The position numbers and the translations under genes are program-made. This document shows, piece by piece, positions 1,070 through 39,821 of a stretch of 39,821 nt of DNA (positions within the stretch are counted from its first letter, which is position 1; each line of letters begins with the position of its first letter). The stretch is from a virus. The notes under the pieces were generated by a model, which was not told where the DNA came from, searched no databases, and saw only the letters and a program-made list of their open reading frames with translations. Where the stretch lies: IMG/VR virus record IMGVR_UViG_3300027668_000041, positions 1 to 39,821 of that record; one strand, 5' to 3'.

Positions 1070-4000
1070 TTATCTTAAAACTTTTTTCTTTCTACGTCTT
1101 GAGGTATTTAATATTCCAGTTCTACTGTATCCACCCTTTTTACCTTTATACTTAGGTTTAGGTTTTATTTGCCATTCTGGCCAGCCTAACAACATAGCTA
1201 TACTTTCCCAAGTTTCAGTATCTTCAGCTAACGCAGCGTCAATATTATTTACTTTATTATAAACCCTATCAATAGGTAAATTTGTTGTGGCAGATATTAC
1301 TTTACCAGCAGCCTCGTAAGCTGGATTATCTAAAGCAAATCCTTTATCAAATATTTCTTTTCTACGTTTCTTACTATCAAACATCCAAGCTGCTTGTCTT
1401 ATTTTAGACACCTTGCTGCTTATTGGTGGAGAAAATTGTAACAACTTGTATACTGAATCTACATATTCAGGTCTTGTTCTACCAGATCTTTCATATAAAT
1501 CTAATAAAAAGTTTTTACCTACAGACACTGCTGATCCAGCTATACCTAATCCTCTTAGTATAGAGTCAGCCATACCATTAGCTACATCTACGTATTTTTC
1601 TTGTTTTTCTTCATCATCTTTTTCATCATCACCAAACCCAAGCATTGTTACAGCTTGCTGAAGCACATTAAATATCATATTCTGAACAGCTGTATAATAT
1701 ATTATTTTACTTATATTGCTTTTTCTATCACCTCTACCATTTATTAAATCTTGATAAGCTCTTTTAGTTAGTCTACCGTATTGCATTGGCGTATTGGCAA
1801 ATGCTAATAAAACTCTACCTAAGCTACTAGCTTGTTGTTGTGATACTTTATCAGGTCTAGAAGATTGTTGAGACTCTTCTGATATTTCTCTAAAATCAGT
1901 AAAAGCTTTAGCTTCAGCCTCGGATTTGTTCATTCCTTCAGATAAATAAGTATTAACTCTATTTCTATAAAAAGTAGCACCACCTGAAGCAATAGCAAAA
2001 CTATCAGCTATCTGTGTAGGTAAAAAACCCTTCTTTAATATATAGTTTAAAACAGCTCTAGCTTTGTTCTTAGATGTTTTAGCAGCATCAGCTATCTCTG
2101 ACTCTGATACATTTATTTTAAGTCCATTACGTCTGTCTACTAAAAAGTCAGAGTTCATTAACATTTTAAAATCAGACCAATATTGCGGTTGGTTAGCAAA
2201 AGCTTTTCCAGCAGAATATAAATTGTTATCACTTAAATTAACAAAGTTTATTGATGATATTAATTGAAGAACAGCTGATCTAGTATTAAAAAACATTATA
2301 GCACCAACAGAGCCATTTATCCAGTCTAATACCTTATCACTCATCCTATTACTACCTTGTATTCTATTCTTACCAGTCTTCATTCTGGTTAACATGTTTT
2401 CTAAAGCTTCTCTATAATTACTTCCATGTATAGCTTCTAACTTATTTAAATTATCTTTACTAAATATAGCATCGACATTTTGCTGCCATTGTTGTAAATA
2501 TCTAGGTCTTTTAACATCATTTAAGCCTTCAATAAGATCTGTAGTTATAGTTCCAGCTAACCAACTTTGAGAAGGATTAGGATAACCATCTTCTTTATTT
2601 ATCTTAATTAATTCTTCGGCAAAAGTTTTTAGTTTTTCATTGCCTTCAATAATTTTCTTAGCGTCTGCTACGTCTCTTTTAGAAGCTCCTGGTACTTCTA
2701 CGCCTTGTAAATCCCATATATACATACGCAAAGCTTGCTCGTTAGTGAACCCATCAAAAGCTTCTTTTTGCAAATCTTTAGGAACATCCATATTCTTTTT
2801 TAAAGCTTTAAAATCAGCCATTAATTGAACTCTTGAAGCTGCTAAACTTTCCATAGCTTTAGAAAAAGGATTAAACAAATTGTCTTTAAAAAACTTCATC
2901 TGAGCATCTCCAGTTTTGCCCTTGCCTAGTATTGGATATATAAGACCTAGCATATCTTCTGCAGAAAAAGGTATCCAAAATTTACGTTTACCTCTTTGAC
3001 TGCCTATTTGTTTTGCTCTAGCTTCTGAAAATGTTTTTTCTCTACCAATACCCTCTGTTTCTTCTATTATTCTATTAAAGTCTTCACTTAAATTTTTGCT
3101 AAATTTAGGTCTTGCTTGTTGTACTTTAGATTTAACATCTAATACTGACATTGCTTTTTTCACTGCAGCTACATTAGCCATAGCATCATCAGCAAAATAA
3201 AAATCATTATAGCCTTCAGCTGCTTTACCAACTAACCACTGTGCTTTAGCTTCACCAGTTGACTTACCTAATCCTATTATATTTTGTTTTTTAAATTCTA
3301 CTCCTTGTGATTTTAAAAACTCATATATAGCATCTTGAGCTTCAGGCGCTCTAGCAGTTAATACAAATAAATCTTCATTACCTCTAGCTGCTTTTATTTT
3401 TTTAGCTATATCTAATAATGGCCCAGGCTTTCCTTTAGTTACTTTATTAAACTCTGAAAAATCAAATTTGTATCCTTGTTCTAATAACTCTTTACCTTGT
3501 TTAGCAAACTCTTCAGCATTTAATTTACCTTTAGTTCCATCAGGAGATGTATATAGTACATTACTCTTAGTAAGAGCTAATGTATCGTCAAAGTCAAATA
3601 CTCTAATTTTTTTAACAGGTTGATTTAGCGAGTTAGCTATATCCAAAGCTTTGTCTGTTTTGCTAAACTGCTTAAGCATATCATCATTAGTCATGTCTTT
3701 AGAATCTATAACTTGACTGTCATTAGCTTCTTGCTTATTAGCTTTTATAGCCGCTTGCTCATCTTTATAAGCCTTGTTTAAGTCTTTACCTTTAACTGAT
3801 TTTTTAAATGAAGTAACATTACCTTCTTTATCAAATTGCGGAGTATAAACAGTCATTTCAAAAGGAAACTTACCATAAGTAGTAGGGTTATAATATCTAT
3901 CAAACCTACTTGTAGAGTTTTGAGGTATACTAGACTTGTATCTTATATTAATAGCTTTATCCATTAAGTCAGGTATAACACTAGTGCTAGAATCTTTAAA

Positions 4001-7000
4001 CTTTTGTTTTAATTCAGTTTCTGTAATATCACCATTAACAAACTGAACCAAGTAATTTTGCATAACCTTCACGGGTGGATTATGCTCGTAAGTATAATCT
4101 GAAGGTTTTTTACTTTCACCTAGTGCTATACTATCTATATAATATGCAGATCTAAGTATAGCTGTCATATCACCTACAGTTGCAGCTAGAAACATACCAA
4201 GATCATTAGTAGTTACATCTGCTTTAGTTCCTTTATTATCTTTATACCATTTTAATTCTCTTATAATAGCATCTTGATTACTAGTGGCGTCATTGTAACT
4301 TAAAAGTAAACTTTTATTACTTAATTTACCATCTTTTATAAACTCTTTTAGGTATTTATTTTTAGCAGCTGTAGATTGTGGAGCTCTTTTTGTTATTATT
4401 TTTTCACCATCATAAACAAGTTTGTTATTAGCAAGCTTTAATTTGTTTTCTGTATCAAAAGGTTTTAATAAGACATTGAAAAACTCTGTTTTATTATTAA
4501 ACAAGCCAAATCTTAAATCAGAACCTCTACCAGATTTCTTGCCTTCAACTAGTTTCCATACACCATCAATTTGTTTCCATGCGTGATTAGGTAATCCACC
4601 TATTTTAGCTGCAGAAGTAAAAGTTTGTTCAAAGTGTTGTACAACATATTGAAAAAACTCAGCATCATTATTAAACTCTTGCTGTAAGTCTCCAAAATAC
4701 TCACTCATTAAGCTTAAATAACCTAGAATTTGATCTTCTTTTCTAAAGTTTATACCTTCTTTACTTATACCTAAGTTTTCTTTTATTGAATCTACATCTG
4801 TTTGTTCATCAAAAGATCTATATAAATACTCGTTAAGTTGAAATTTATCAGGTTTTTTACTATCGTATAATGTTTTAGGAGCTTGATCAACTATATCTTT
4901 CCAAGAGTCTACTATTTCTCCCCTTATACTTAGTGGTTTTGTACCTTTTTTGTTATATAAAAAAGTATCATAAGCTAACCTAAAAGCTGTGTCAGGAGTA
5001 ATACCTTTAGTAGCTAATAACTCTATAAACATTGGAAGATTGGCTAAGTATGTTGCTTTTTGATCTTCATTTAATTTACCATAGGTAGTACCTAAATTTT
5101 CAGCAGCAAATAATTTTTCTTTTGTACTCTTGCTGAACAACTGAGGCGGTATACCATCTCTAAGAGTTCTTAATGCTTCTATAGCTTCGCCATCTTGTAT
5201 TAATTGTTCTCTAATTTCTTGACTAGATATTACTTGATCAAAGTTTCTTACAAAACCTTTTAATATATCACTTACGCCACCTTTTTTAGAGGGAACTTTT
5301 TGATTCCAATTGTTTTGATCTTTACCTGTAATACCAAAAGCTTCTTTAAATTCAATGTCTGATATATTAGGTTTTTTAATTTGAACTTCTAAACCAGCTC
5401 CAGTTTTAGATCTAACACTACGTTTGTTGTAAAATTTTTCTAATAATTTATTTACAACACCTGTAGCTTTAAAATCACTAGTATATCCTTCAATTAAAGA
5501 AACTTTAGCTACATCCGTGTTTGAATTAATAAATTTTTGTATAGCTAACATTTCAGCTTTATTAAGATCAGAGTTTTTACTTATCTTATTAAATATGGAC
5601 TTGCCTAGCTCTTCATCTCTACCTATCATTATAGATAACTCTTCAAGAGCTGTGCCTTTTAATTGCTTTATGTTTTTAGCTTTTAATGATTTAGCTTTTG
5701 ATCTAATAGATTTAACTACCTTGTCTATATCGTAAACTTTAGGTAACTTCTCTCTAACTTTAATACCTTCTCTCTCATCTTGTCTTACTTCTCTTTCAGT
5801 TCTAGTGTCTCTCGATGTTTCTTCTTCAGCTGCTATCTGCTTTGTATCTTCTGTTATTCTTATAGTTTGATCTTCGGCTGATCTAACACCTAACTCTGTA
5901 GCTAATGTTTTTAACTCTAACATACCTTTATTAGCAATATACTGATTAAAAGGCTGTCTAGTTCCATTCCACTTTTTAATCCATTTTGATCCTAATATGC
6001 TATTTTTAGCAGAGTCTACATAAGACTTTCTTGTAATACCTGCTTCTTCTAAAATGTTTTTAGGTATTTTACTACCGTAAGAATTCCAAGCAGCTCCAGC
6101 AACTCTACCAGCTATTTTTTCAACTTGATCAGCTTTTATTACTTCAGCGTCTTCACCAACACTTTTTAACTCTTGTATTTTAGCTGGACTTTTAGAAAAC
6201 TTTTTACCACCAGCCTCTGCTTCTTCTGTACCTAGTTCAGATATAGCTTCACTAAGTTTACCTTCTTTAACACTTTTATTATATTCTCTTAAGAAATTAT
6301 ATACATCTTTACCTGTTTCAAACTTGATCTTAGCAAAACCTGCTTTACGCAATATAGGTGTTAAAAAATCTTTTAATTTAGTAAATACATTTTCATCGTA
6401 AGCTATTTCTTTCTTAGCTACAGCATCAGAAAATAAAGTCAATGCCTCGTCAGGGTTTTGTGTCAAGTAATCGTCTGAATAAAGTCTATTACCTTTTTCA
6501 TCTACCGCTTGCAGCTTACTATCAAGAACACTTAATTGGTTTTCGTTTAGCTGGCTTTTAAATTCTTGTACTAATTTAGTAGCATTTTTACCTTTTAACT
6601 CTTTATTAAGTATACCATGTAATAACTCGTGGCTACCAACAGATACAGCACCTGTTTCTTGAGCTACTTCTTCATTAATATATATAATTCCATCTTGTAT
6701 AAAACCATCTGCCTCAGCTTCTGTTTTTCCAAATCTATCACCAAATTCTTTTTTAGAACCTACAGCTTCTGTTTTTAAACCAAACTTTTTACCTTCTGTT
6801 TCTGCAAATTTAACACTTTCAGCTACTTGAACCTTTCTATCTTCTTTAAATACATCACTTATAGTAGAACTTACCTCTTCTAATCTAGCGTCTATTTCTT
6901 TAATTCTTTTTTCTTGAGTTTTAGTTAAACTAGACTCATTAACTGCTTTTCTTTCGCCATCAAGAATTTCTTTTTCTTTTAATAATGCAACTACCTCAAC

Positions 7001-8305
7001 CTCGTTTTCTCCTTTTAAATTTGCTCTTTTAGCTTTATTAGTAGCCGATTGTGTAGCTCTAAAATTCTTTTTAATAGCTTCTCCTTGCTCAGGAGTTATT
7101 TGAGTATTTTTAACTTGAGTATCTACTTGTTCATCTAATATCTTAGTAGAATTTTTTATTTGAGATATATTTAAATCAGCTTCAGTTACATTGGTTGACG
7201 GATCAAAAGCTTCAACTAAATTTTTGAATTCAGTATTTTTTAATTGATTATTTATTTTAACTCTATCAATGTTTGTGTTTATATTAAGCAATTGTTGCCC
7301 AGCAGTTAATGGTGCACTTCCTAATCCTGCAAAAGCTTCAAAACCTATTTCAGCTATGTCCATCTCTTGACCAGCCACCGCTCTACCAGCAACCTCACCT
7401 AAGCCACCACCCGCTATTTCTACAGCTCCTGTGGCTGCAGCACCAACTAAAGGTGCAGATCTAAAACCTGCGGAGGCTATTTTACCACCAACACCTTTTG
7501 CTAAACCCATGGTAGCAACTTCAACAGCTCCAATAGCTAAACCTCTACCACCAGCTTTTACTCTTAGATCATGCAATTTTTCTGGATCATCTAATATCGC
7601 TCTAATTTTTTCTTTTGTTAAATCACCACCTGCCTCTTCTTGTAATAACTCAGCAAATGTTAAACCAGTCTCCATAGCTGTCATACTACCAGTCATTAAT
7701 CCAGTAATAGCACCAGCAACATTTCCAACAATAGGAACTGCAGTACCCACACCAAAACCAACAGCTCCAGCAGCAGCACTAGCCGCAGCCACTTGCTCAG
7801 ATGTTCTTATAGAATTTAGTTGCCCAGATATAGAACTAACTAACATAGATGTTAAAGTTGTTGGATTATTCCAAGCACCTATTACAAAACCAGCCCATCC
7901 TCCACCTTCTTCTTCATATATCTTATTAAAAGATTTCATCTCGTCAGACTCCATACTTACTTCTGCAAGATTTTTATTAGCTTCTACAAACTTTAAAATT
8001 TCTTCATCTGTAGATTCACTTCCTTCATAGAATATATCTAAACTAGGATCAACTGATTTAGCTTGTTCTACACCTTGAGTCCAAGCCCTAGATATGTCAC
8101 CAAAGAAATCTGTTACTGCATTTTTTCCAATACCAGGTATTTTTTCAATTGCAGTAAGTTTTTCACCTGACTCTTCTTCATCTTCTTTAATAGGTTCAAT
8201 TTCAGTTTCTTCACTTATTATTAAATCATCTATACTATTAGTTTCTTCTACAACTTCTTCTACAGTGTCTTCTATTATTAAATCCTCTATACCGCTTTCT
8301 TGCAT
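1070..8305 (-). CDS. Giant multidomain virion/ejection-type (polyvalent) protein, 2411 aa
   Basis: This is the last and largest gene of the structural block, in the place of T7 gp16. Domains in order: an acidic N-terminus (residues 1-60); Ala/Gly-rich hydrophobic stretches (about 170-215 and 250-340) that could insert into membrane; a zincin-type motif HELLH at 559-563; a long charged helical middle; and an HAD-type phosphatase region with DFDDT at 1571-1575, LTAR at 1649-1652 and FADDA with D1706/D1707. A C-terminal region (about 2000-2250) has hydrophobic helices, and the tail is very basic. Stacked enzymatic domains match the 'polyvalent protein' theme known for phage proteins injected with DNA. 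The domain calls rest on motifs seen here; ejection into the cell is inferred from position. It starts 6 bases after the preceding stop. An RNA polymerase role is not supported: no polymerase motif was recognised. Confidence 0.75.
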   Translation of the reverse strand: MQESGIEDLIIEDTVEEVVEETNSIDDLIISEETEIEPIKEDEEESGEKLTAIEKIPGIGKNAVTDFFGDISRAWTQGVEQAKSVDPSLDIFYEGSESTDEEILKFVEANKNLAEVSMESDEMKSFNKIYEEEGGGWAGFVIGAWNNPTTLTSMLVSSISGQLNSIRTSEQVAAASAAAGAVGFGVGTAVPIVGNVAGAITGLMTGSMTAMETGLTFAELLQEEAGGDLTKEKIRAILDDPEKLHDLRVKAGGRGLAIGAVEVATMGLAKGVGGKIASAGFRSAPLVGAAATGAVEIAGGGLGEVAGRAVAGQEMDIAEIGFEAFAGLGSAPLTAGQQLLNINTNIDRVKINNQLKNTEFKNLVEAFDPSTNVTEADLNISQIKNSTKILDEQVDTQVKNTQITPEQGEAIKKNFRATQSATNKAKRANLKGENEVEVVALLKEKEILDGERKAVNESSLTKTQEKRIKEIDARLEEVSSTISDVFKEDRKVQVAESVKFAETEGKKFGLKTEAVGSKKEFGDRFGKTEAEADGFIQDGIIYINEEVAQETGAVSVGSHELLHGILNKELKGKNATKLVQEFKSQLNENQLSVLDSKLQAVDEKGNRLYSDDYLTQNPDEALTLFSDAVAKKEIAYDENVFTKLKDFLTPILRKAGFAKIKFETGKDVYNFLREYNKSVKEGKLSEAISELGTEEAEAGGKKFSKSPAKIQELKSVGEDAEVIKADQVEKIAGRVAGAAWNSYGSKIPKNILEEAGITRKSYVDSAKNSILGSKWIKKWNGTRQPFNQYIANKGMLELKTLATELGVRSAEDQTIRITEDTKQIAAEEETSRDTRTEREVRQDEREGIKVREKLPKVYDIDKVVKSIRSKAKSLKAKNIKQLKGTALEELSIMIGRDEELGKSIFNKISKNSDLNKAEMLAIQKFINSNTDVAKVSLIEGYTSDFKATGVVNKLLEKFYNKRSVRSKTGAGLEVQIKKPNISDIEFKEAFGITGKDQNNWNQKVPSKKGGVSDILKGFVRNFDQVISSQEIREQLIQDGEAIEALRTLRDGIPPQLFSKSTKEKLFAAENLGTTYGKLNEDQKATYLANLPMFIELLATKGITPDTAFRLAYDTFLYNKKGTKPLSIRGEIVDSWKDIVDQAPKTLYDSKKPDKFQLNEYLYRSFDEQTDVDSIKENLGISKEGINFRKEDQILGYLSLMSEYFGDLQQEFNNDAEFFQYVVQHFEQTFTSAAKIGGLPNHAWKQIDGVWKLVEGKKSGRGSDLRFGLFNNKTEFFNVLLKPFDTENKLKLANNKLVYDGEKIITKRAPQSTAAKNKYLKEFIKDGKLSNKSLLLSYNDATSNQDAIIRELKWYKDNKGTKADVTTNDLGMFLAATVGDMTAILRSAYYIDSIALGESKKPSDYTYEHNPPVKVMQNYLVQFVNGDITETELKQKFKDSSTSVIPDLMDKAINIRYKSSIPQNSTSRFDRYYNPTTYGKFPFEMTVYTPQFDKEGNVTSFKKSVKGKDLNKAYKDEQAAIKANKQEANDSQVIDSKDMTNDDMLKQFSKTDKALDIANSLNQPVKKIRVFDFDDTLALTKSNVLYTSPDGTKGKLNAEEFAKQGKELLEQGYKFDFSEFNKVTKGKPGPLLDIAKKIKAARGNEDLFVLTARAPEAQDAIYEFLKSQGVEFKKQNIIGLGKSTGEAKAQWLVGKAAEGYNDFYFADDAMANVAAVKKAMSVLDVKSKVQQARPKFSKNLSEDFNRIIEETEGIGREKTFSEARAKQIGSQRGKRKFWIPFSAEDMLGLIYPILGKGKTGDAQMKFFKDNLFNPFSKAMESLAASRVQLMADFKALKKNMDVPKDLQKEAFDGFTNEQALRMYIWDLQGVEVPGASKRDVADAKKIIEGNEKLKTFAEELIKINKEDGYPNPSQSWLAGTITTDLIEGLNDVKRPRYLQQWQQNVDAIFSKDNLNKLEAIHGSNYREALENMLTRMKTGKNRIQGSNRMSDKVLDWINGSVGAIMFFNTRSAVLQLISSINFVNLSDNNLYSAGKAFANQPQYWSDFKMLMNSDFLVDRRNGLKINVSESEIADAAKTSKNKARAVLNYILKKGFLPTQIADSFAIASGGATFYRNRVNTYLSEGMNKSEAEAKAFTDFREISEESQQSSRPDKVSQQQASSLGRVLLAFANTPMQYGRLTKRAYQDLINGRGDRKSNISKIIYYTAVQNMIFNVLQQAVTMLGFGDDEKDDEEKQEKYVDVANGMADSILRGLGIAGSAVSVGKNFLLDLYERSGRTRPEYVDSVYKLLQFSPPISSKVSKIRQAAWMFDSKKRRKEIFDKGFALDNPAYEAAGKVISATTNLPIDRVYNKVNNIDAALAEDTETWESIAMLLGWPEWQIKPKPKYKGKKGGYSRTGILNTSRRRKKKVLR

Positions 8306-28853: not shown

Positions 28854-29080
28854 TAATATTTAAGATCATATTCAACTGAAATAGCCATATTAGAATTAAA
28901 TTTTTTCCAAGGTAAAACTTCATTATTTTTAGTTATAAAAATATTATAAGAACTATCTTCTTTTTCAAAAATAATATCGCTAATTATATGCTTACCATAC
29001 ACCTCTTGTCCAGTGGCATAGTGCATAGCCTCGTTCTTATAGTCAGCCCCTATACTAATCTTTCTTATTACTTTCGACAT
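28853..29080 (-). CDS. Small conserved-looking protein (75 aa), function unknown
   Basis: The start MSKVIRKISIGADYKNEAMH is followed by HYATGQEVYG, a strand-like IISDIIFEKEDSSYNIFITK and an end of FNSNMAISVEYDLKY. From memory, small proteins of this pattern with 'WKxFNSNM' and a final 'EYDL' are frequent in marine phage genomes, and their function is unknown to me. The stop shares one base with the next gene's start region (28853), and it overlaps the upstream gene by 26 bases. It appears soluble and beta-rich. Confidence 0.6.
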   Translation of the reverse strand: MSKVIRKISIGADYKNEAMHYATGQEVYGKHIISDIIFEKEDSSYNIFITKNNEVLPWKKFNSNMAISVEYDLKY

Positions 29081-29306
29081 CTTCCTTCTCTATCTTAGTA
29101 TAAATACCATCTTCTAAGTTAATATTTATTGGGCCATACTCTTTTTCAAGAATTTCTTTATAGTCTTCTACTTGTCCGTTAATCCCAGCTATATCATGTA
29201 ACAACCCATGCTTTTGAGCTTCTAACATACCTATATTGTTTATTAACTCATTAAGTTGTTTTTGTTGCTCTTGAATTAATAATAATTCTTCTTCTTTAAT
29301 TTTCAT
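29055..29306 (-). CDS. Small coiled-coil protein (83 aa)
   Basis: The N-terminal 50 residues are a coiled coil (KEEELLLIQEQQKQLNELIN, and onwards to VEDYKEILEKEYG), followed by a short acidic tail. No cysteine, no membrane segment and no enzyme motif are visible. It overlaps the 75-aa gene by 26 bases and is the first gene after a short noncoding region (29307-29370) carrying a palindrome, so it may begin a transcription unit. Function unknown. Confidence 0.6.
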   Translation of the reverse strand: MKIKEEELLLIQEQQKQLNELINNIGMLEAQKHGLLHDIAGINGQVEDYKEILEKEYGPININLEDGIYTKIEKEDVESNKKD

Positions 29307-29347
29307 TTGATTTTATTTAATTGTTTATTTATCTGTTACTTATATAT

Positions 29348-29363
29348 TTACTTGTATAAGTAA
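29348..29363. promoter_or_regulatory. Palindrome in the longest gap of the structural block
   Basis: TTACTT-GTAT-AAGTAA is a perfect 6-bp inverted repeat with a 4-base centre. It lies about 40 bases upstream of the 83-aa start, in a 64-base gap that is long for this genome. Further TTACTT-like copies lie next to it (29335-29342). It could be an operator or promoter element. The stem has only one G-C pair per arm, so a terminator is less likely. Confidence 0.35.
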
Positions 29364-29370
29364 TTTTTTA

Positions 29371-29619
29371 CTATTCAGGATCTGGAGTTGACCAAGCTGC
29401 GGTTGCCATTAAAACTAAAGCTTCGTTTTGGTTCATTACATCACCTACTATTGGCAAACTACCATCTGTAACAAAACTTGGAGTTACTCTATAACTTAAT
29501 AACCCTTGAGTATTTGCTAAATTTCTTCTCATTGATTGTGCGTTTTGTTGATCAACTTGTGAGAATAAAACTAAGTTTGTATTACTTAACTCAATTACTA
29601 TATAACTTTTATTATTCAT
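29371..29619 (-). CDS. Small protein downstream of LamG fibre genes (82 aa)
   Basis: The protein begins MNNKSYIVIELSNTNLVLFS and reads as a small alpha/beta domain, with NAQSMRRNLANTQGLLSYRV in the middle and VLMATAAWSTPDPE at the end. There is no signal peptide or membrane segment. It follows the 710-aa LamG protein after 18 bases and ends before the palindrome-bearing gap. A fibre chaperone or attachment factor would fit that place but is speculative; I recognise no family. Confidence 0.55.
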   Translation of the reverse strand: MNNKSYIVIELSNTNLVLFSQVDQQNAQSMRRNLANTQGLLSYRVTPSFVTDGSLPIVGDVMNQNEALVLMATAAWSTPDPE

Positions 29620-29637
29620 TTTTTTTATTTTAATATT

Positions 29638-34487: not shown

Positions 34488-34940
34488 TTATTTATTTATT
34501 TTTGTAATTTTTTCAGCACCACGACTTCCGAAGTATGCTACATATACTGTAATTAGTAAAGTTTTAAGTAGTTCAACCCAAGCAGTGTCTATACTAAACA
34601 GAATACTGTGGAATGAATCTAATATCATTAATGTTGTTGAAGCTAGAGTTAGATATATAAGAGTAAGCGGACGAGTGTTTTTAGAAAGCCACGAATCGCT
34701 TTTCATATCGCTAGACCAACGTTTAGAAACGTTTTCCATCTCTATAAGATCTTGTTCTATCAACTTCATTGCAGTTTCTTTATCAACTGCCTTAATCTTA
34801 GTATCACTTGATATAAGATTTTTTACTACACCAAGAGTTCCTTGATTAGGCAACACATCTCCTAGAGCTTGTAATACTTTAGGTGCTTTACTAGCTAAAA
34901 AAGCACCTACTTTAGTTTCTTTAAATGTTTTTTTTCCCAT
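34488..34940 (-). CDS. Holin of 3TM type (150 aa)
   Basis: The sequence resembles the GTA/3TM holin superfamily: a polar, partly helical N-terminal half with LDKETAMKL-type helix (DKETAMKLIEQDLIEMENVS), then a 'NTRPLTLIYLTLASTTLMIL' membrane helix. A second segment is near WVELLKTLLITVYVAYFGSR, and a basic end follows. Holins make membrane pores that release the endolysin. The start overlaps the stop of the zincin-like gene by one base (TAATG), so translation is probably coupled. Together with the small 51-aa protein it gives two holin candidates. Confidence 0.7.
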   Translation of the reverse strand: MGKKTFKETKVGAFLASKAPKVLQALGDVLPNQGTLGVVKNLISSDTKIKAVDKETAMKLIEQDLIEMENVSKRWSSDMKSDSWLSKNTRPLTLIYLTLASTTLMILDSFHSILFSIDTAWVELLKTLLITVYVAYFGSRGAEKITKINK

Positions 34941-35782
34941 TACATAGACGTATTTATATCTGAAAAATATTTATTTAATTGGTTTTTAGTTCCCTTAGGA
35001 GTAGCTGCATGACCTTCGATCTGCGTAGATTTTGGATCATTATATAAATTATCTCCAGAAGTTCTTACTAAACTGCTCTTAGCAAGTTCATCACCTTTTT
35101 TATTAAAATATTTTCTTCCTTTTGGTTGGTCTTTACGATCTTCTTTATATATAGGATTTAAAGCTTTGTATTCGTCTTTAGGAACCATTAGTTTATGCTT
35201 TGTTATTTTGTTGCTCTGAGAACTGGAAGTCTTAGTTTTTACAGTTTTATCTTTAGCATAGTCAGTTAAACTAGGAAACCTAGTGCCTTCATCTGTATAC
35301 ACAACAACTTTTTTATGCTGTAATCTTTTTTTTATTTTATCTCCAGCTTTTTTTATTAATCCTCTATTGGAAAGCGCTGACATAGGTTCAGATTCTCCTC
35401 TGTGTCCTTGTAGTTTAAAATTTTTATTCATATGTAATGGTCCTCTTAATTTATCTTCACTAGTATTACCACTTGGTTTTTTGTTTTCAGTTTTATCATA
35501 AGCTTCTTTTTCCCATGGTAGATTTTTAGCGCCTTCTTTCATTTGAGCTCTAGAATATGATTTACCTTTCCAGTAAACATTAGAATCATCATAATCCAAA
35601 TCGCCTCTATCCATTTGGTCTATATGTATAGATTCATGAGCTACTATTTCATCAATTTGATCAGGATCATTTACTTTATTATTCACGTCTATAGTGCCGT
35701 CTCTATTAGCTTTTCCTAAAACACCTTCGTCCATGGATACTTTTCTAATAGGTGTGTTTTTATTTTTTAATTTAAATGCCAT
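34940..35782 (-). CDS. Zincin-like metallopeptidase (280 aa)
   Basis: An HExxH motif is visible as HESIH at 49-53 in the helix DEIVAHESIHIDQMDRG, and a likely third ligand glutamate follows in LPWEKEAYDK (E91 or E93). This is the arrangement of gluzincin-type enzymes. After about residue 100 the protein is Lys/Ser/Thr-rich and probably extended, with KGTKNQLNKYF near the end. The N-terminus begins MAFKLKNKNT, the same first six residues as the 315-aa protein at 37808-38755. A cell-wall or virion protease is possible; the substrate is unknown. It is coupled to both neighbours through TAATG overlaps. Confidence 0.6.
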   Translation of the reverse strand: MAFKLKNKNTPIRKVSMDEGVLGKANRDGTIDVNNKVNDPDQIDEIVAHESIHIDQMDRGDLDYDDSNVYWKGKSYSRAQMKEGAKNLPWEKEAYDKTENKKPSGNTSEDKLRGPLHMNKNFKLQGHRGESEPMSALSNRGLIKKAGDKIKKRLQHKKVVVYTDEGTRFPSLTDYAKDKTVKTKTSSSQSNKITKHKLMVPKDEYKALNPIYKEDRKDQPKGRKYFNKKGDELAKSSLVRTSGDNLYNDPKSTQIEGHAATPKGTKNQLNKYFSDINTSM

Positions 35783-36003
35783 TATTTTTTCAATTCTGGA
35801 TACTTTCTATAAACACATTTTTTAATACTAGAAGGGTTTTTTGCGTTTCCAGCTAGTTTCAAAGCTGATTTAGCTCTTTTCAAAGTGTTTACTGGAAAAG
35901 TACCTTTTGGCCCACAAAAATCTTTTTTAGATACATTTGGGTATTTACCAGCATTAGACATTCCCGGTTCTTCTCTTACTTCTGTTATTGTTTTTTTAGC
36001 CAT
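35782..36003 (-). CDS. Small basic Cys-containing protein, FCGPxGTFPV type (73 aa)
   Basis: This 73-aa Lys-rich protein contains KKDFCGPKGTFPVNTLKRAK and IKKCVYRKYPELKK. From memory the 'F-C-G-P-x-x-x-F-P-V' plus a following Arg/Ala/Leu helix resembles small domains found in phage structural proteins (families annotated only as DUFs). The basic charge suggests nucleic acid or peptide contact, but no function is known. Its stop overlaps the zincin-like gene start by TAATG. Confidence 0.6.
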   Translation of the reverse strand: MAKKTITEVREEPGMSNAGKYPNVSKKDFCGPKGTFPVNTLKRAKSALKLAGNAKNPSSIKKCVYRKYPELKK

Positions 36004-36008
36004 AATAT

Positions 36009-36152
36009 TTATTTTTTATAAGGAAAGTTCTTGTTGAACCAATCTTTTCTATGATCGCAACCACAACCACCTGGAATCATATCTGCCATTTTTTTTATAC
36101 CTGTAGCTTCTGTAAACTTAGCTATTGTATCACCAAATCCTTTAGATTTCAT
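36009..36152 (-). CDS. Small GCGC-motif protein (47 aa)
   Basis: The ATG at 36152 overlaps the upstream stop as ATGA, giving MKSKGFGDTIAKFTEATGIK and ending with CGCDHRKDWFNKNFPYKK. The C-x-C-D-x-R-K-x-W motif with a KxFPY end recurs, from memory, in many small phage proteins of unknown function. No membrane segment is present. A metal site at the two cysteines and His is possible but only inferred. It stops 5 bases before the 73-aa gene. Confidence 0.6.
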   Translation of the reverse strand: MKSKGFGDTIAKFTEATGIKKMADMIPGGCGCDHRKDWFNKNFPYKK

Positions 36153-36409
36153 TTCTCTTTATTTGAATTACAAAACTTTTTAGCTGCTCCAACACTTGCA
36201 AAACCCCATTTCTTTAAAGCTATAGCTTTTCTAGTTGGTTCACCATTAGGTTTTTTCATAGGACCTTTCATACCAGCAAATCTACAAGCAAATGAAACTC
36301 TACGTTTACCTTTGCCACTAGTTTGTCTAGAACCTAAAGTTTTACCTGTTTCTTTCTTGTGGTCAGAACGCATTTTACGATTAGATTTCTCGTAACTAGC
36401 GTTAGTCAT
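36149..36409 (-). CDS. Basic small protein (86 aa), phage DUF-like
   Basis: The protein is strongly basic and includes RRVSFACRFAGMKGPMKKPN, followed by a GEPTRKAIALKKWGF segment and a final AAKKFCNSNKEK. From memory this matches the style of a small domain family in phage genomes ('S-F-x-A-R-x-x-G-M-K-G-P' then 'P-T-R-x-A-x-A-L-x-x-W'), of unknown function. Two cysteines sit near positions 42 and 80. It overlaps the downstream gene by ATGA and the upstream 44-aa gene by 8 bases. Confidence 0.6.
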   Translation of the reverse strand: MTNASYEKSNRKMRSDHKKETGKTLGSRQTSGKGKRRVSFACRFAGMKGPMKKPNGEPTRKAIALKKWGFASVGAAKKFCNSNKEK

Positions 36410-36536
36410 TTTTACAATCTTTTGATTTCTTATGACTATAACCTTTTTTCTTTAAAGATAAATGCTCTTTCATTGTCTTAGCTTCTACTTCTTTACAGTC
36501 TTTGTACATCATATGTACTTTAAATTCTTTAGCCAT
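36402..36536 (-). CDS. Very small basic protein (44 aa)
   Basis: The ATG at 36536 gives MAKEFKVHMMYKDCKEVEAK, then KTMKEHLSLKKKGYSHKKSK and ends DCKND. It is Lys-rich, with two cysteines (C14 and near the end). Its start overlaps the upstream gene stop by one base (TAATG), and its end overlaps the next gene by 8. The same packing as neighbouring real genes supports it. No function known. Confidence 0.55.
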   Translation of the reverse strand: MAKEFKVHMMYKDCKEVEAKTMKEHLSLKKKGYSHKKSKDCKND

Positions 36537-36685
36537 TACTTTTTCTTTTTACCTATTTTAACGCAATTATTAACCATTTTAGGCTTACCATTTTTATCTT
36601 TTTTACCACTTGGAGATTTTTTCTTACCTTCAGCTTTATAACCTTTCCAACAAGTATCTCCTCTTTTAGTTCTCTTTTTAGCCAT
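36536..36685 (-). CDS. Very small Lys-rich protein (49 aa)
   Basis: The ATG at 36685 gives MAKKRTKRGDTCWKGYKAEG, then KKKSPSGKKDKNGKPKMVNN and ends CVKIGKKKK. It is one of the most basic proteins in the window; two cysteines (near 12 and 42) frame the Gly/Lys/Pro part. Both ends use TAATG coupling. A DNA-condensing or membrane-active role would fit the charge but is not supported otherwise. Confidence 0.6.
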   Translation of the reverse strand: MAKKRTKRGDTCWKGYKAEGKKKSPSGKKDKNGKPKMVNNCVKIGKKKK

Positions 36686-37041
36686 TATTTACGTTTTTTA
36701 GACTTTAGATCTTTTAACTGCTTAGCTAATTCATCTAACTTGCCATCTGTTTTTGTACCGTCTTTAACTAGTGTAGATAGTACTTTTATTTCTTCAGATA
36801 ATATACTATTCATTTCTTCAATCATACTAACCTTTTCTTTTAATTCAGTTATATTAATATGATTCCACTTTTCTTTAAGATCGTATTCTAATCTTTTAAC
36901 TTCTACTGGTGGTAAGGTTTTTGCTATTTGTATATCTTCTTGTAATGTATAATACATCCCAACTAAAGTAGTTGTTAACATTATTATACCTATTACTGTT
37001 TTTATATCAATTTTAAATTCTGTGTTTTCAGATATCTTCAT
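36685..37041 (-). CDS. Membrane-anchored coiled-coil protein, spanin-like (118 aa)
   Basis: I start it at the ATG 37041 (MKISENTEFKIDIKTV): this overlaps the amidase by only 14 bases. An in-frame start 48 bases further out would overlap by 62 and adds a polar stretch of no obvious use. The product has one membrane segment (about residues 14-31, VIGIIMLTTTLVGMYY) and then a long charged coiled-coil (EKVSMIEEMNSILSEEIKVL). This topology is typical of inner-membrane spanin-type (Rz-like) proteins and of some phage holin partners. It directly follows the amidase. Function inferred from topology and neighbours. Confidence 0.5.
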   Translation of the reverse strand: MKISENTEFKIDIKTVIGIIMLTTTLVGMYYTLQEDIQIAKTLPPVEVKRLEYDLKEKWNHINITELKEKVSMIEEMNSILSEEIKVLSTLVKDGTKTDGKLDELAKQLKDLKSKKRK

Positions 37042-37438
37042 ACTCTCCTGTTGCATCAAAAGATGGGCATGCTTTATTAGCAAACTCATTATGTGAATAA
37101 ATCATTGACTCTGGATACATTGCTTTAATTGTTTTAAGCACATGTAAGAGACTTTCTTTCTGTTCTTGTGTTCTTGTATCCTTTGGTGTCTTTCCGTCAG
37201 CTTCGACGCCTCCGCAATAGCAAACGCCTATTGAATTCCTATTACGCCCTTTACAATGAGCACCAATTTTATCAATATCACGACCTTTGTGTATTGTTCC
37301 GTCTAAATCAATATAAAAATGATAACCTATATCGTTCCAGCCTTTGGCCAAATGCCAGTCTCTAATAGTATCAACTGAGACTTGCTGTGATTCTCTAGTT
37401 GCGGAGCAATGTATAATTACTTCTTTTACTAATCTCAT
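37028..37438 (-). CDS. N-acetylmuramoyl-L-alanine amidase (T7 lysozyme-like), 136 aa
   Basis: This endolysin cuts the bond between muramic acid and the stem peptide at the end of infection. Key positions match T7 lysozyme: zinc ligands H10 (VIIHCSATR), H116 (YSHNEFANK) and C124 (KACPSFD), and catalytic Y39 and K122. The spacing between them is nearly identical to T7 (29, 77, 6 and 2 residues against 29, 76, 6 and 2). No signal peptide is present, so it needs a holin. In T7 this enzyme also inhibits the phage RNA polymerase; no such polymerase lies in this window. It is coupled by ATGA to the upstream holin-like gene. Confidence 0.93.
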   Translation of the reverse strand: MRLVKEVIIHCSATRESQQVSVDTIRDWHLAKGWNDIGYHFYIDLDGTIHKGRDIDKIGAHCKGRNRNSIGVCYCGGVEADGKTPKDTRTQEQKESLLHVLKTIKAMYPESMIYSHNEFANKACPSFDATGEYEDI

Positions 37439-37590
37439 TTTTTCTTATGTAATAATAACCATTTATGTACGGTGTACCCTATGGTTAAAGTTAATAATAA
37501 TATCTCTAACATTGGCTCTATCCAGTTTAACGTGGCTAAAGCAAATGAAGATGCATTCAGTAAATACAACTTCACATCTTCCATATCCAT
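37435..37590 (-). CDS. Small holin-like membrane protein (51 aa)
   Basis: An ATG at 37590 starts MDMEDVKLYLLNASSFALAT, followed by a hydrophobic helix (EPMLEILLLTLTIGYTVHKW) and a basic end (LLLHKKK). One or two membrane segments (about 7-22 and 27-47) with a basic C-terminus are the usual layout for small holins. Its stop TGA overlaps the amidase ATG (ATGA), so the pair is translationally coupled. The hydrophobicity and location are clear; the holin role is inferred. Confidence 0.65.
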   Translation of the reverse strand: MDMEDVKLYLLNASSFALATLNWIEPMLEILLLTLTIGYTVHKWLLLHKKK

Positions 37591-38756: not shown

Positions 38757-39191
38757 TTATCTTTTTTTATCTTTATTAACATAACTTATAGACTTAGTTA
38801 TAACTTTATAACTATATCTATTGATATTTTCTAATTTTTTAGTAGGCATATCTTCTTCGCCTAGTATAACTCGGTACATGCGACTTATCAGCTGTTTGCA
38901 CTTATAGGAAACTTTATATATATGATATTTTTGAGTGGTGTGGTTTCTTTTACGCCACACTGTAATCCACCCTTGTTTCAATAATCTGTTCCAGCGCCTG
39001 TTATCCCAGCTGAATGAGTACGTACCTTTTTTAAAATCATCTTTAGTAAACATATCTATAGCATCAAGATATATCAATAGTTCTAAATCTGCATCATTTA
39101 AGTTATTAGTTTTACAAGCCCATTTACGTATTATTCTATAATGCTTAAGTAAACCTAGCTCTTTTAAATCACTAGAAGTTAATTTCCTCAT
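38757..39191 (-). CDS. Winged-helix-like protein, possible transcription regulator (144 aa)
   Basis: The first 110 residues resemble a winged helix. Helices LKHYRIIRKWACKTNNLNDA and ADLELLIYLDAIDMFTKDDF are followed by a recognition-like helix (SWDNRRWNRLLKQGWITVWR) and strands (KYHIYKVSYKCKQLI). MarR-type regulators share this helix-wing order. The C-terminal 35 residues are basic. It is coupled by ATGA to groES and begins the region before the late lysis and structural genes, so a role in late transcription is an attractive inference. DNA binding is not proven. Confidence 0.55.
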   Translation of the reverse strand: MRKLTSSDLKELGLLKHYRIIRKWACKTNNLNDADLELLIYLDAIDMFTKDDFKKGTYSFSWDNRRWNRLLKQGWITVWRKRNHTTQKYHIYKVSYKCKQLISRMYRVILGEEDMPTKKLENINRYSYKVITKSISYVNKDKKR

Positions 39192-39448
39192 AAAATAACA
39201 ACTACATCAAACTCTTTAATAACTTTATATTCTTCTTTATTTATTTCAATATTAAATCCAGCTGCTTTGTCATAATAAACTTCATCACCTTTTTTTAATA
39301 CTGATACATCAGAGCCAGGTTCTACAACCTTAGCTCTTCTATATCTAACATCTTCTCTTTGCTTTTCAGCTAAGATTAATCCACCTTTTGTAGTTACGTC
39401 AGTTTCCTTGACTGGATCTATAACTATAAATTTACCTACTGCTTTCAT
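39188..39448 (-). CDS. groES: Co-chaperonin GroES, phage-encoded (86 aa)
   Basis: The heptameric lid of the chaperonin. It begins MKAVGKFIVIDPVKETDVTT, has a mobile-loop-like TTKGGLILAEKQRED (compare GGIVL in bacterial GroES), then VVEPGSDVSVLKKGDEVYYD and a final EEYKVIKEFDVVVIL strand. At 86 aa it is about ten residues shorter than bacterial GroES. It overlaps the end of groEL by ATGA, so it is translated after groEL, the reverse of the bacterial groES-groEL order. Its product would fold phage proteins with the phage GroEL. Confidence 0.88.
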   Translation of the reverse strand: MKAVGKFIVIDPVKETDVTTKGGLILAEKQREDVRYRRAKVVEPGSDVSVLKKGDEVYYDKAAGFNIEINKEEYKVIKEFDVVVIL

Positions 39449-39821
39449 GCTCTAATGTTATTTATAACACAATCAGTAGATAGTATTGTAGTGGCTACTG
39501 AGGCTGCGTTCGTTAATGCACTTTTAGTAACTAGCAAAGGATCTATAATTCCGGCTTTTACCATATCAACCGTGTTTCCTGTAACCACATCTAATCCCAT
39601 ACCTTGTACTTCTGAGGCTTGATAACTTTCGACGCCAGCATTTTTAAGTATCAATTTAAAAGGTTCTTGAATAGCACAATAAAGTACTTCTTCACCTATT
39701 GATGTTGATTTTAATTGCTGTGCAGCGTTTAATAAAGCTATACCGCCTCCTGGCACTATGCCTTCTTTGATCGCAGCTTTTGTAGCACAAATAGCATCTT
39801 CTACTCTATCTCTTTTTTCTT
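39445..39821 (-). CDS. groEL: Chaperonin GroEL, C-terminal part, cut by the window edge
   Basis: This gene folds proteins with GroES. The frame is open to the right edge: upstream codons give EKRDRVEDAICATKAAIKEG followed by IVPGGGIALLNAA, the GroEL signature, so an apparent start at 39756 is internal (a GTG valine codon). Downstream are LILKNAGVESYQASEV and GIIDPLLVTKSALTNAASVA. Those belong to the equatorial domain around the ATP site. The protein ends CVINNIRA, without the Gly-Gly-Met tail of most bacterial GroEL, as is common in phage versions. The gene order groEL-groES on the minus strand is inverted relative to bacteria. Confidence 0.92.
   Translation of the reverse strand, partial: EKRDRVEDAICATKAAIKEGIVPGGGIALLNAAQQLKSTSIGEEVLYCAIQEPFKLILKNAGVESYQASEVQGMGLDVVTGNTVDMVKAGIIDPLLVTKSALTNAASVATTILSTDCVINNIRA

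Follow-up and report, generated by a model that had tools for sequence, protein, structure and literature searches.

A chain of ten open reading frames (ORFs) on the minus strand of the marine virus record IMGVR_UViG_3300027668_000041, positions 37590..34488 of the 39.8-kb stretch analyzed here (39,821 nt; hereafter, the window), appears to encode more than a lysis cassette. Judged by their sequence matches, the flanks of the chain are ordinary lysis genes, amidase and holin. The small basic proteins with two cysteines encoded between them probably belong to the particle and not to the lysis machinery, because three of the five match parts of longer proteins that have been reported in particles of cyanophages and of a gut crAss-like phage. 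In the favored reading, which can be given a probability of about 0.55, the operon would co-express lysis proteins and stand-alone virion-cargo modules that are fused in other phages. The chain consists of the following genes (TM, transmembrane segment; HMM, hidden Markov model).

37435..37590, minus strand: G1, 51-aa holin-like membrane protein, two hydrophobic stretches by eye
37028..37438, minus strand: G2, N-acetylmuramoyl-L-alanine amidase (endolysin), phrog_822 (6.6e-58) and PF01510 (2.4e-15)
36685..37041, minus strand: G3, 118 aa, N-terminal TM followed by a coiled coil (by eye), 14-base overlap
36536..36685, minus strand: G4, 49 aa, CWxGY...NCV module recognized by its family HMM, net charge +17, two Cys
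36402..36536, minus strand: G5, 44 aa, net charge +6, two Cys, family HMM matching in 12 of 23 flavophage loci
36149..36409, minus strand: G6, 86 aa, DUF6321 (PF19846, Pfam 5e-10), net charge +19, two Cys
36009..36152, minus strand: G7, 47 aa, C-x-C module, net charge +5, two Cys, HMM matching in 23 of 23 flavophage loci
35782..36003, minus strand: G8, 73 aa, module in common with crassvirus cargo protein 1 (phmmer, tblastn, HMM), net charge +13, two Cys
34940..35782, minus strand: G9, 280 aa, putative minimal zincin, HExxH and a downstream Glu, motif present in aligned relatives
34488..34940, minus strand: G10, 150-aa 3TM holin, phrog_3427 holin (1.2e-19)

The junctions from G1 to G10 measure, in bases, -4 (ATGA), -14, -1 (TAATG), -1 (TAATG), -8, -4 (ATGA), +5, -1 (TAATG), and -1 (TAATG), so all nine are exactly as given in an earlier note on this DNA, and the ten-gene chain is real. 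Overlaps are found at 8 of these 9 junctions, compared with 4 of 26 same-strand junctions elsewhere in the window (Fisher p = 1.6e-4, an optimistic value, as the chain was selected after being seen and the genes outside it were hand-picked from ORF lists). Only one of the nine downstream starts, that of G3, has a Shine-Dalgarno-like motif. Between the amidase and zincin genes, the chain encodes the 118-aa TM/coiled-coil protein G3 and the small basic proteins G4 to G8, with isoelectric points of 9.5 to 10.8, net charges of +5 to +19, and exactly two Cys residues each; the earlier note had rightly pointed to such proteins, but there are five of them (49, 44, 86, 47, and 73 aa), not four. The ORFs behave as genes, judged by the ratio of nonsynonymous to synonymous substitution rates (dN/dS) among relatives, computed for G1 to G8 and G10: the median pairwise values are 0.10 to 0.32 for G1 to G7 and G10 (0.10 for G1) and 0.63 for G8, whose set of ten sequences is apparently a mix of two subfamilies. 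A sequencing or gene-calling artefact was rejected on the basis of this purifying selection and the conserved junctions in relatives.

The link between G8 and the crassviruses is based on several types of searches. Of the 39 phage records with a match to G8, 38 have crAss-like names, and a search of PDB sequences aligned it with residues 274 to 329 of the crAss001 “Cargo protein 1 gp45” (phmmer, 1e-5). The same module was recovered by the G8 HMM, with independent E-values of 1.6e-6 and 4.9e-6 in crassvirus loci (the shared gp45 module at 4.9e-6), and by tblastn (3e-5 for the shared module and 7e-7 for Carjivirus gp47); two HMMs run on reversed crassvirus loci gave no match. In addition, phrog_16160 connects a G8 relative (4.4e-9) to gp45 residues 282 to 313 (7e-4). 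Virion peptides of crAss001 gp45 detected by mass spectrometry (MS) include residues 275 to 300 and 307 to 320 (PMC10172136), both of which fall inside the G8-matching stretch, and the same source describes gp45 as resolved by electron cryomicroscopy (cryo-EM) in the tail barrel (residues 214 to 245) and at the portal (residues 425 to 552). Further along crAss001 gp45 (L145:5167-7695), after residue 370, the stretch KIKEKNKGKFTAY...C...C...FAQN resembles the minigene family FTAW63 of the flavophage relatives (E = 0.11). This likeness, just downstream of the G8 match, is a lead that would put two modules of the same kind in one cargo protein.

G4 and G6 point to the cyanophages. HMMs for nine modules were built from 22 close loci (see below) and the window and were applied to 19 annotated phage loci picked from earlier matches; reversed-sequence controls with all nine gave no match below 0.05. 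The G4 HMM matches 6 of the 19 loci (P-SSM2, 6e-11; RB11-B, 2e-10; S-P4; S-CREM2 gp160, 1.2e-6; S-SSM7, 2e-6; and S-SM1, 0.011), the HMM of SAYA, a module found only in the relatives of the window, matches seven (1e-7 to 9e-5), and the G6 HMM matches twelve, one of which, ACG-2014f, is a fused cyanomyovirus protein. The cyanomyovirus protein T4-GC119 (P-SSM2_123, S-SM1_115, and the S-P4 “structural protein,” with S-SCSM1_29 included by module content, not annotation), carries G4, SAYA, and DUF6321 modules. The assignment of G6 itself to DUF6321 passes the Pfam cutoff (40.3 bits versus 28.5), and the T4-GC119 proteins of P-SSM2, S-SM1, and S-P4 end in DUF6321 by Pfam, with E-values of 3e-22 to 1e-23. 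The 517-aa S-SCSM1_29, which combines SAYA (1.4e-6), G4 (2.4e-7), and PF19846 (3e-22), is labeled “virion protein” in its record. Hand counting found 48 coding sequences with labels of this type in that record, and MS detected 45 proteins according to the S-SCSM1 paper (PMC9602691). S-CREM2 gp160, which carries G4 and SAYA, matches by its coordinates the ORF160 listed with 7 unique peptides in Table 3 of PMC10665884. A tblastn search of phages with G4 had found no match, perhaps because this protein is short and Lys-rich; it was the profile searches that later detected it. PDB sequence searches with G4, G5, G6, G7, SAYA, and KAW70 gave no match, and FTAW63 gave only a chance-level one (E = 0.89).

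The suggestion of the earlier note that the chain may code for more than lysis is therefore supported, as G4, G6, and G8 match modules of virion-reported proteins and are encoded beside an amidase and a holin. Genome context in other phages is consistent with this: in 8 of the 13 annotated loci that were opened, an annotated head or packaging gene is found at most three genes away from the DUF6321 gene. In the other five, the DUF6321 gene is four genes away (S-SZBM1), does not fit (S-RIP1, P-GSP1, and HTVC204P), or sits in an unannotated locus (Hodr). Term searches of papers on P-SCSP1u, P-SSP7, and the MPP-C cyanopodoviruses found no virion protein list in the text so covered. The C-terminal “DWF” submodule of the relatives was not counted, as its similarity to cyanomyovirus proteins is not significant (E > 2). 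As a separate observation, a motif [VILMF]xE[GSA] precedes 14 of 32 module starts in ten cyanomyovirus proteins (loci L088, L096, L097, L099-L103, and L139), compared with a mean of 3.9 and a maximum of 12 at random positions in 2,000 placements, a post hoc comparison on related sequences. The motif resembles a prohead-protease site; in the internal (injected) proteins of T4, the prohead protease cuts a capsid targeting sequence.

A scan of viral contigs with G6 returned 316 coding stretches, of which the best 80 loci were kept. A holin gene lies within 6 kb downstream of G6 in 38 of them; the other 42 either are cut by contig ends or have another arrangement. Among the 38, a group of 22 close loci (ORF sequences inspected for 8) keeps the frame of the chain, with G7 between G6 and the holin in all 22. 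In 17 of them, G6 and G7 still share the ATGA overlap, and the other 5 have an extra ORF inserted at this point. The scattered or fragmentary genes that the earlier note named as refuting its view are thus not seen in these close relatives. In the remaining slots, the set of similar minigenes changes from locus to locus, with overlaps or short gaps between neighbors; in the 22 loci and the window, the modules were counted 23 (G6), 23 (G7), 17 (G4), 12 (G5), 11 (FTAW63), 10 (G8), 6 (SAYA), 6 (DWF91), and 5 (KAW70) times. Over the 38 loci, the junctions comprise 173 overlaps, 126 gaps of 0 to 5 bases, and 39 longer gaps. Fusions occur here as well: L067 joins G4-like and DWF91 modules, and in both L031 and L036, a minigene lacking Cys is fused to SAYA. 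Of the 42 loci without a holin gene within 6 kb, 12 were read; in 10 of them, a giant ORF of 1,196 to 1,938 aa precedes the minigenes directly or a few genes apart; the inspected stretches of L031 and L053 contain none.

The large terminase subunit (TerL) of the window matches 87 phage records, 86 of which are named as phages of Flavobacterium, Cellulophaga, Tenacibaculum, or Maribacter. The best match is MW202828 (“Caudoviricetes sp.,” Manatee Spring; 63% identity), and the next ones listed are the Flavobacterium elemo podoviruses (45%). When the module and frame HMMs were run on approximately half of each genome of an elemo phage and MW202828, the only parts of the chain found were a G1-like gene in the former and G7 (1.7e-15) in the latter.

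The cysteine residues of the minigenes form a conserved pattern. Of 80 DUF6321 sequences, 63 of them aligned (the window plus 62 relatives from a list of 66, with L003, L020, L042, and L065 left out) and 17 from annotated phages, 74 have both the Cys of the SFxxR motif and a second one downstream of it, 6 have neither, and none has just one of the two; the cyanophage DUF6321 domains have both cysteines at shifted positions. Cys residues in aligned columns were counted over nine families, with a second viral-contig scan (35 loci) used only for these counts and the DWF search. Both cysteines are present in 31 of 31 G7, 10 of 10 FTAW63, 12 of 12 DWF91, and 56 of 57 G4 sequences, the last one being gapped. 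G5 has 12 sequences with two and 4 with none, KAW70 has 4 with both and 1 with none, and G6 has 65 with both, 5 with none, and 8 gapped, 7 of which show one Cys within the aligned stretch. For SAYA, the counts are 14 with both, 2 gapped, and 1 single, with the second Cys of the single row just beyond the aligned stretch. For G8, 6 have both (with a third Cys in three of those rows) and 1 has none, and the G8 subfamily represented by L022 has four. Because the two cysteines nearly always persist or disappear as a pair, this pattern suggests a disulfide, with the reservation that the sequences are related and the independent events few.

The AlphaFold2 (AF2) model of G6 (predicted local distance difference test [pLDDT] score, 90.6; predicted TM-score [pTM], 0.72) consists of four helices; C42 is part of helix 2 and C80 of helix 4. 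A Foldseek search of PDB returned 8 rows, none with an E-value below 6.8, and alignment against 34 chains with VIA-align gave none at Z 2; this lack of PDB matches does not establish a new fold. The best BFVD matches carry the name DUF6321, in some cases as part of a larger chain. Also among the BFVD matches are DUF6321-like domains in two proteins of uncultured phages, one of 679 aa named Ferritin/DPS and the other an AAA protein of 1,143 aa.

Taken together, these data can be accommodated by the following scheme. The phage would be of the podovirus type, with terminase relatives that infect Flavobacteriia, and the chain would serve it as a late operon. Its lysis products would include two holin candidates, the amidase, and a possible inner-membrane spanin, and the G4-G8-type proteins, judged by their homologs, would be packaged in the virion as cargo. 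Translation would proceed from each stop codon to the overlapping start, with terminating ribosomes restarting mostly without Shine-Dalgarno sites and yielding matched amounts of the products. In the oxidizing environment of released virions, each Cys pair may form a disulfide, as its paired conservation implies. The most likely role of these proteins would be to line or neutralize DNA near the portal and to be ejected either together with the genome or before it, as has been proposed for the crAss001 cargo. A much broader generalization, that diverse tailed phages (flavobacterial podoviruses, cyanomyoviruses, cyanopodoviruses, pelagiphages, and crassviruses) share a kit of approximately ten small, mostly two-Cys basic modules that are loaded into the capsid and ejected ahead of the DNA, either as coupled minigenes or as one long protein perhaps cut by the prohead protease, is tentative and, at present, doubtful.

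Several alternatives can be considered. The chain might be an ordinary lysis cassette with accumulated unrelated accessory minigenes for host takeover or anti-defense, its overlaps merely reflecting the compactness of phage genomes. Such an origin would fit the variable slots between conserved genes, with their many different inserted ORFs, the overlaps at 4 of 26 junctions elsewhere in the window, and the lack of a virion-protein link for G5 and G7; still, it appears unlikely, as the inserts are nonrandom, with G4, SAYA, and DUF6321 recurring fused in one cyanomyovirus protein, a conserved Cys pair in nine families, and three of the modules in virion-reported proteins. Phage disruptins disrupt the outer membrane, and the small cationic proteins could be lysis factors of this kind that replace an outer-membrane spanin. 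Their strongly basic character and location in a lysis operon with a holin and an amidase would agree with such a function, as would the fact that no outer-membrane spanin was recognized in the chain, where no systematic search was made. Nevertheless, this function is highly improbable: in eight of the opened loci, relatives of these proteins are encoded next to scaffold, capsid, portal, or terminase genes, and proteins reported from virions contain such relatives in fused form; furthermore, inspection by eye reveals no evident signal peptide, and a folded helical domain is predicted for G6. Finally, the net charges of +5 to +19 would also suit intracellular nucleic-acid-binding proteins that are abundant late in infection and reach virion preparations by carry-over, which both cyanophage proteome papers mention for some hits (PMC10665884 and PMC9602691). 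This explanation is very unlikely, given that crAss001 gp45 has been resolved in place by cryo-EM in two segments with the G8 region between them and that conserved Cys pairs would be better suited to an oxidizing place than to the cytoplasm.

The assignment of the minigene products to the virion, which remains the preferred reading, has to be weighed against a number of observations that speak against it. No virion data were found for the window phage or its close relatives, and the chain lies ∼6 kb upstream of TerL in the window, not adjoining head genes. The HMMs of G5, G7, and G8 are unmatched in the 19 annotated phage loci, and G5 and G7 appear without any link to virion proteins. The G6 HMM built here misses S-SCSM1_29 and, at independent E-values of <0.05, the P-SSM2, S-P4, S-SM1, S-SSM7, and RB11-B proteins, so the link of G6 to the cyanomyoviruses rests on the Pfam DUF6321 model. 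For S-SCSM1 and S-CREM2, the evidence applies at the level of the protein, not of the module; the authors' caveat that some nonstructural hits are possibly carry-over applies here too, and the mismatch of 48 versus 45 indicates that the S-SCSM1 record labels track the proteome closely but not exactly. The S-SZBM1 DUF6321 protein gp192 is absent from the table of confirmed proteins (score of >50) in PMC9146016, in which its neighbors gp195 and gp190 are listed. The S-SM1 T4-GC119 protein is annotated as hypothetical in a record that names other proteins as virion structural, and T4-GC119 is called a hypothetical protein in Sullivan 2010 (PMC3037559). In the literature searched, T4-GC119 is mentioned once, as a hypothetical protein, and there is no mention of DUF6321 or the motifs WPSAYASG and CWKGY.

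Membership of the outer genes of the chain in a lysis cassette follows from the matches of G2 to the endolysin family phrog_822 and of G10 to the holin family phrog_3427. The G10 family has matches in 15 phage records and is called holin in some Nonlabens and Vibrio phage records. G1, which has homologs in 30 of the 80 loci, gave no PHROG or Pfam match. G3, with homologs in 36 of 80 and a weak match to phrog_20984 (0.0096), could be an inner-membrane spanin-like protein, given its TM segment and coiled coil; no lipoprotein partner for it was seen in the chain, where no dedicated tool or systematic search was applied. In G9, residues H53, E54, H57, and E97 are invariant in 14 aligned sequences, window included, and provide the HExxH motif and Glu of gluzincins. 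The AF2 model of a 111-aa G9 relative, of moderate confidence (pLDDT, 75), has its best PDB matches among zincins, with IrrE/PprI at Z-scores of 5.2 to 5.3 and a root-mean-square deviation of ∼4 over 86 to 87 residues. The C-terminal extension of G9 is variable, the protein being 111 aa long in L010 and L012, 280 in the window, and 494 in L030. A Pfam Ku_N hit on G9, just under its cutoff, was rejected. A purely lysis role for all ten genes was also rejected, on the grounds given above for the alternatives.

Other parts of the window contain a few further features. Ahead of the chain, two genes identified by eye as GroES and the terminal part of GroEL (39188-39756, minus strand) overlap each other by 4 bases, and GroES-like ORFs are found in 25 of the 80 related loci, upstream of G6 in 23. 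A 784-base gap separates two minus-strand genes (28854-29637) in an otherwise compact genome. A giant protein of 2,411 aa (1070-8305, minus strand), encoded at the end of the minus-strand gene series, has a polynucleotide-kinase-like stretch at residues 1561 to 1725 (phrog_415, 2.3e-7); its gene adjoins an opposite-strand ORF (54-770) that is ribonucleotide reductase-like by eye.

Genes of the DUF6321 and partner families, whose function is unknown, occur commonly in marine phages: besides the 316 viral-contig stretches with a G6 relative, 531 phage records have a match to one part or another of a cyanomyovirus protein ending in DUF6321. For three of the minigene families, the fused homologs reported from virions suggest a role that can be tested, and with the modules as separate genes, any one of them can readily be deleted or expressed by itself. 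If the proposed reading is true, a lysis operon can also serve to supply virion cargo.

Several known systems can be compared with the window. The Nonlabens phage P12024 shares the holin family with the window and has a weak G7 match (E = 0.5); in P12024S, unlike in the window chain, the holin and the G7-like match are ∼11 kb apart. In the pelagiphages HTVC200P and HTVC031P and the cyanopodovirus S-CBP4, DUF6321 is a stand-alone gene product of 81 to 83 aa whose gene adjoins another small basic gene, as in the window, but is located between the scaffold and capsid genes rather than between the amidase and holin genes. T4-GC119 is one fused protein of 271 to 529 aa encoded near the terminase genes in P-SSM2, S-SM1, S-P4, and S-SCSM1. 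G4 and DUF6321 are parts of one chain in S-SCSM1, P-SSM2, S-P4, S-SM1, and RB11-B, whereas in the window the modules are separate overlapping genes in a lysis operon. Crassvirus cargo protein 1 is an 842-aa protein that has a portal-bound domain and is predicted to contain a TM helix, in contrast to the stand-alone, 73-aa G8; the crAss001 form of the G8 stretch lacks both cysteines, and G8 has two. The domain PF25725 (crAss_CARG1), found at residues 424 to 555 of crAss001 gp45, was not detected in G8 at E-values up to 1, and G8 is therefore not a crassvirus cargo protein 1. Likewise, G4 and G6 are not a T4-GC119 protein; what they have in common with these systems is modules.

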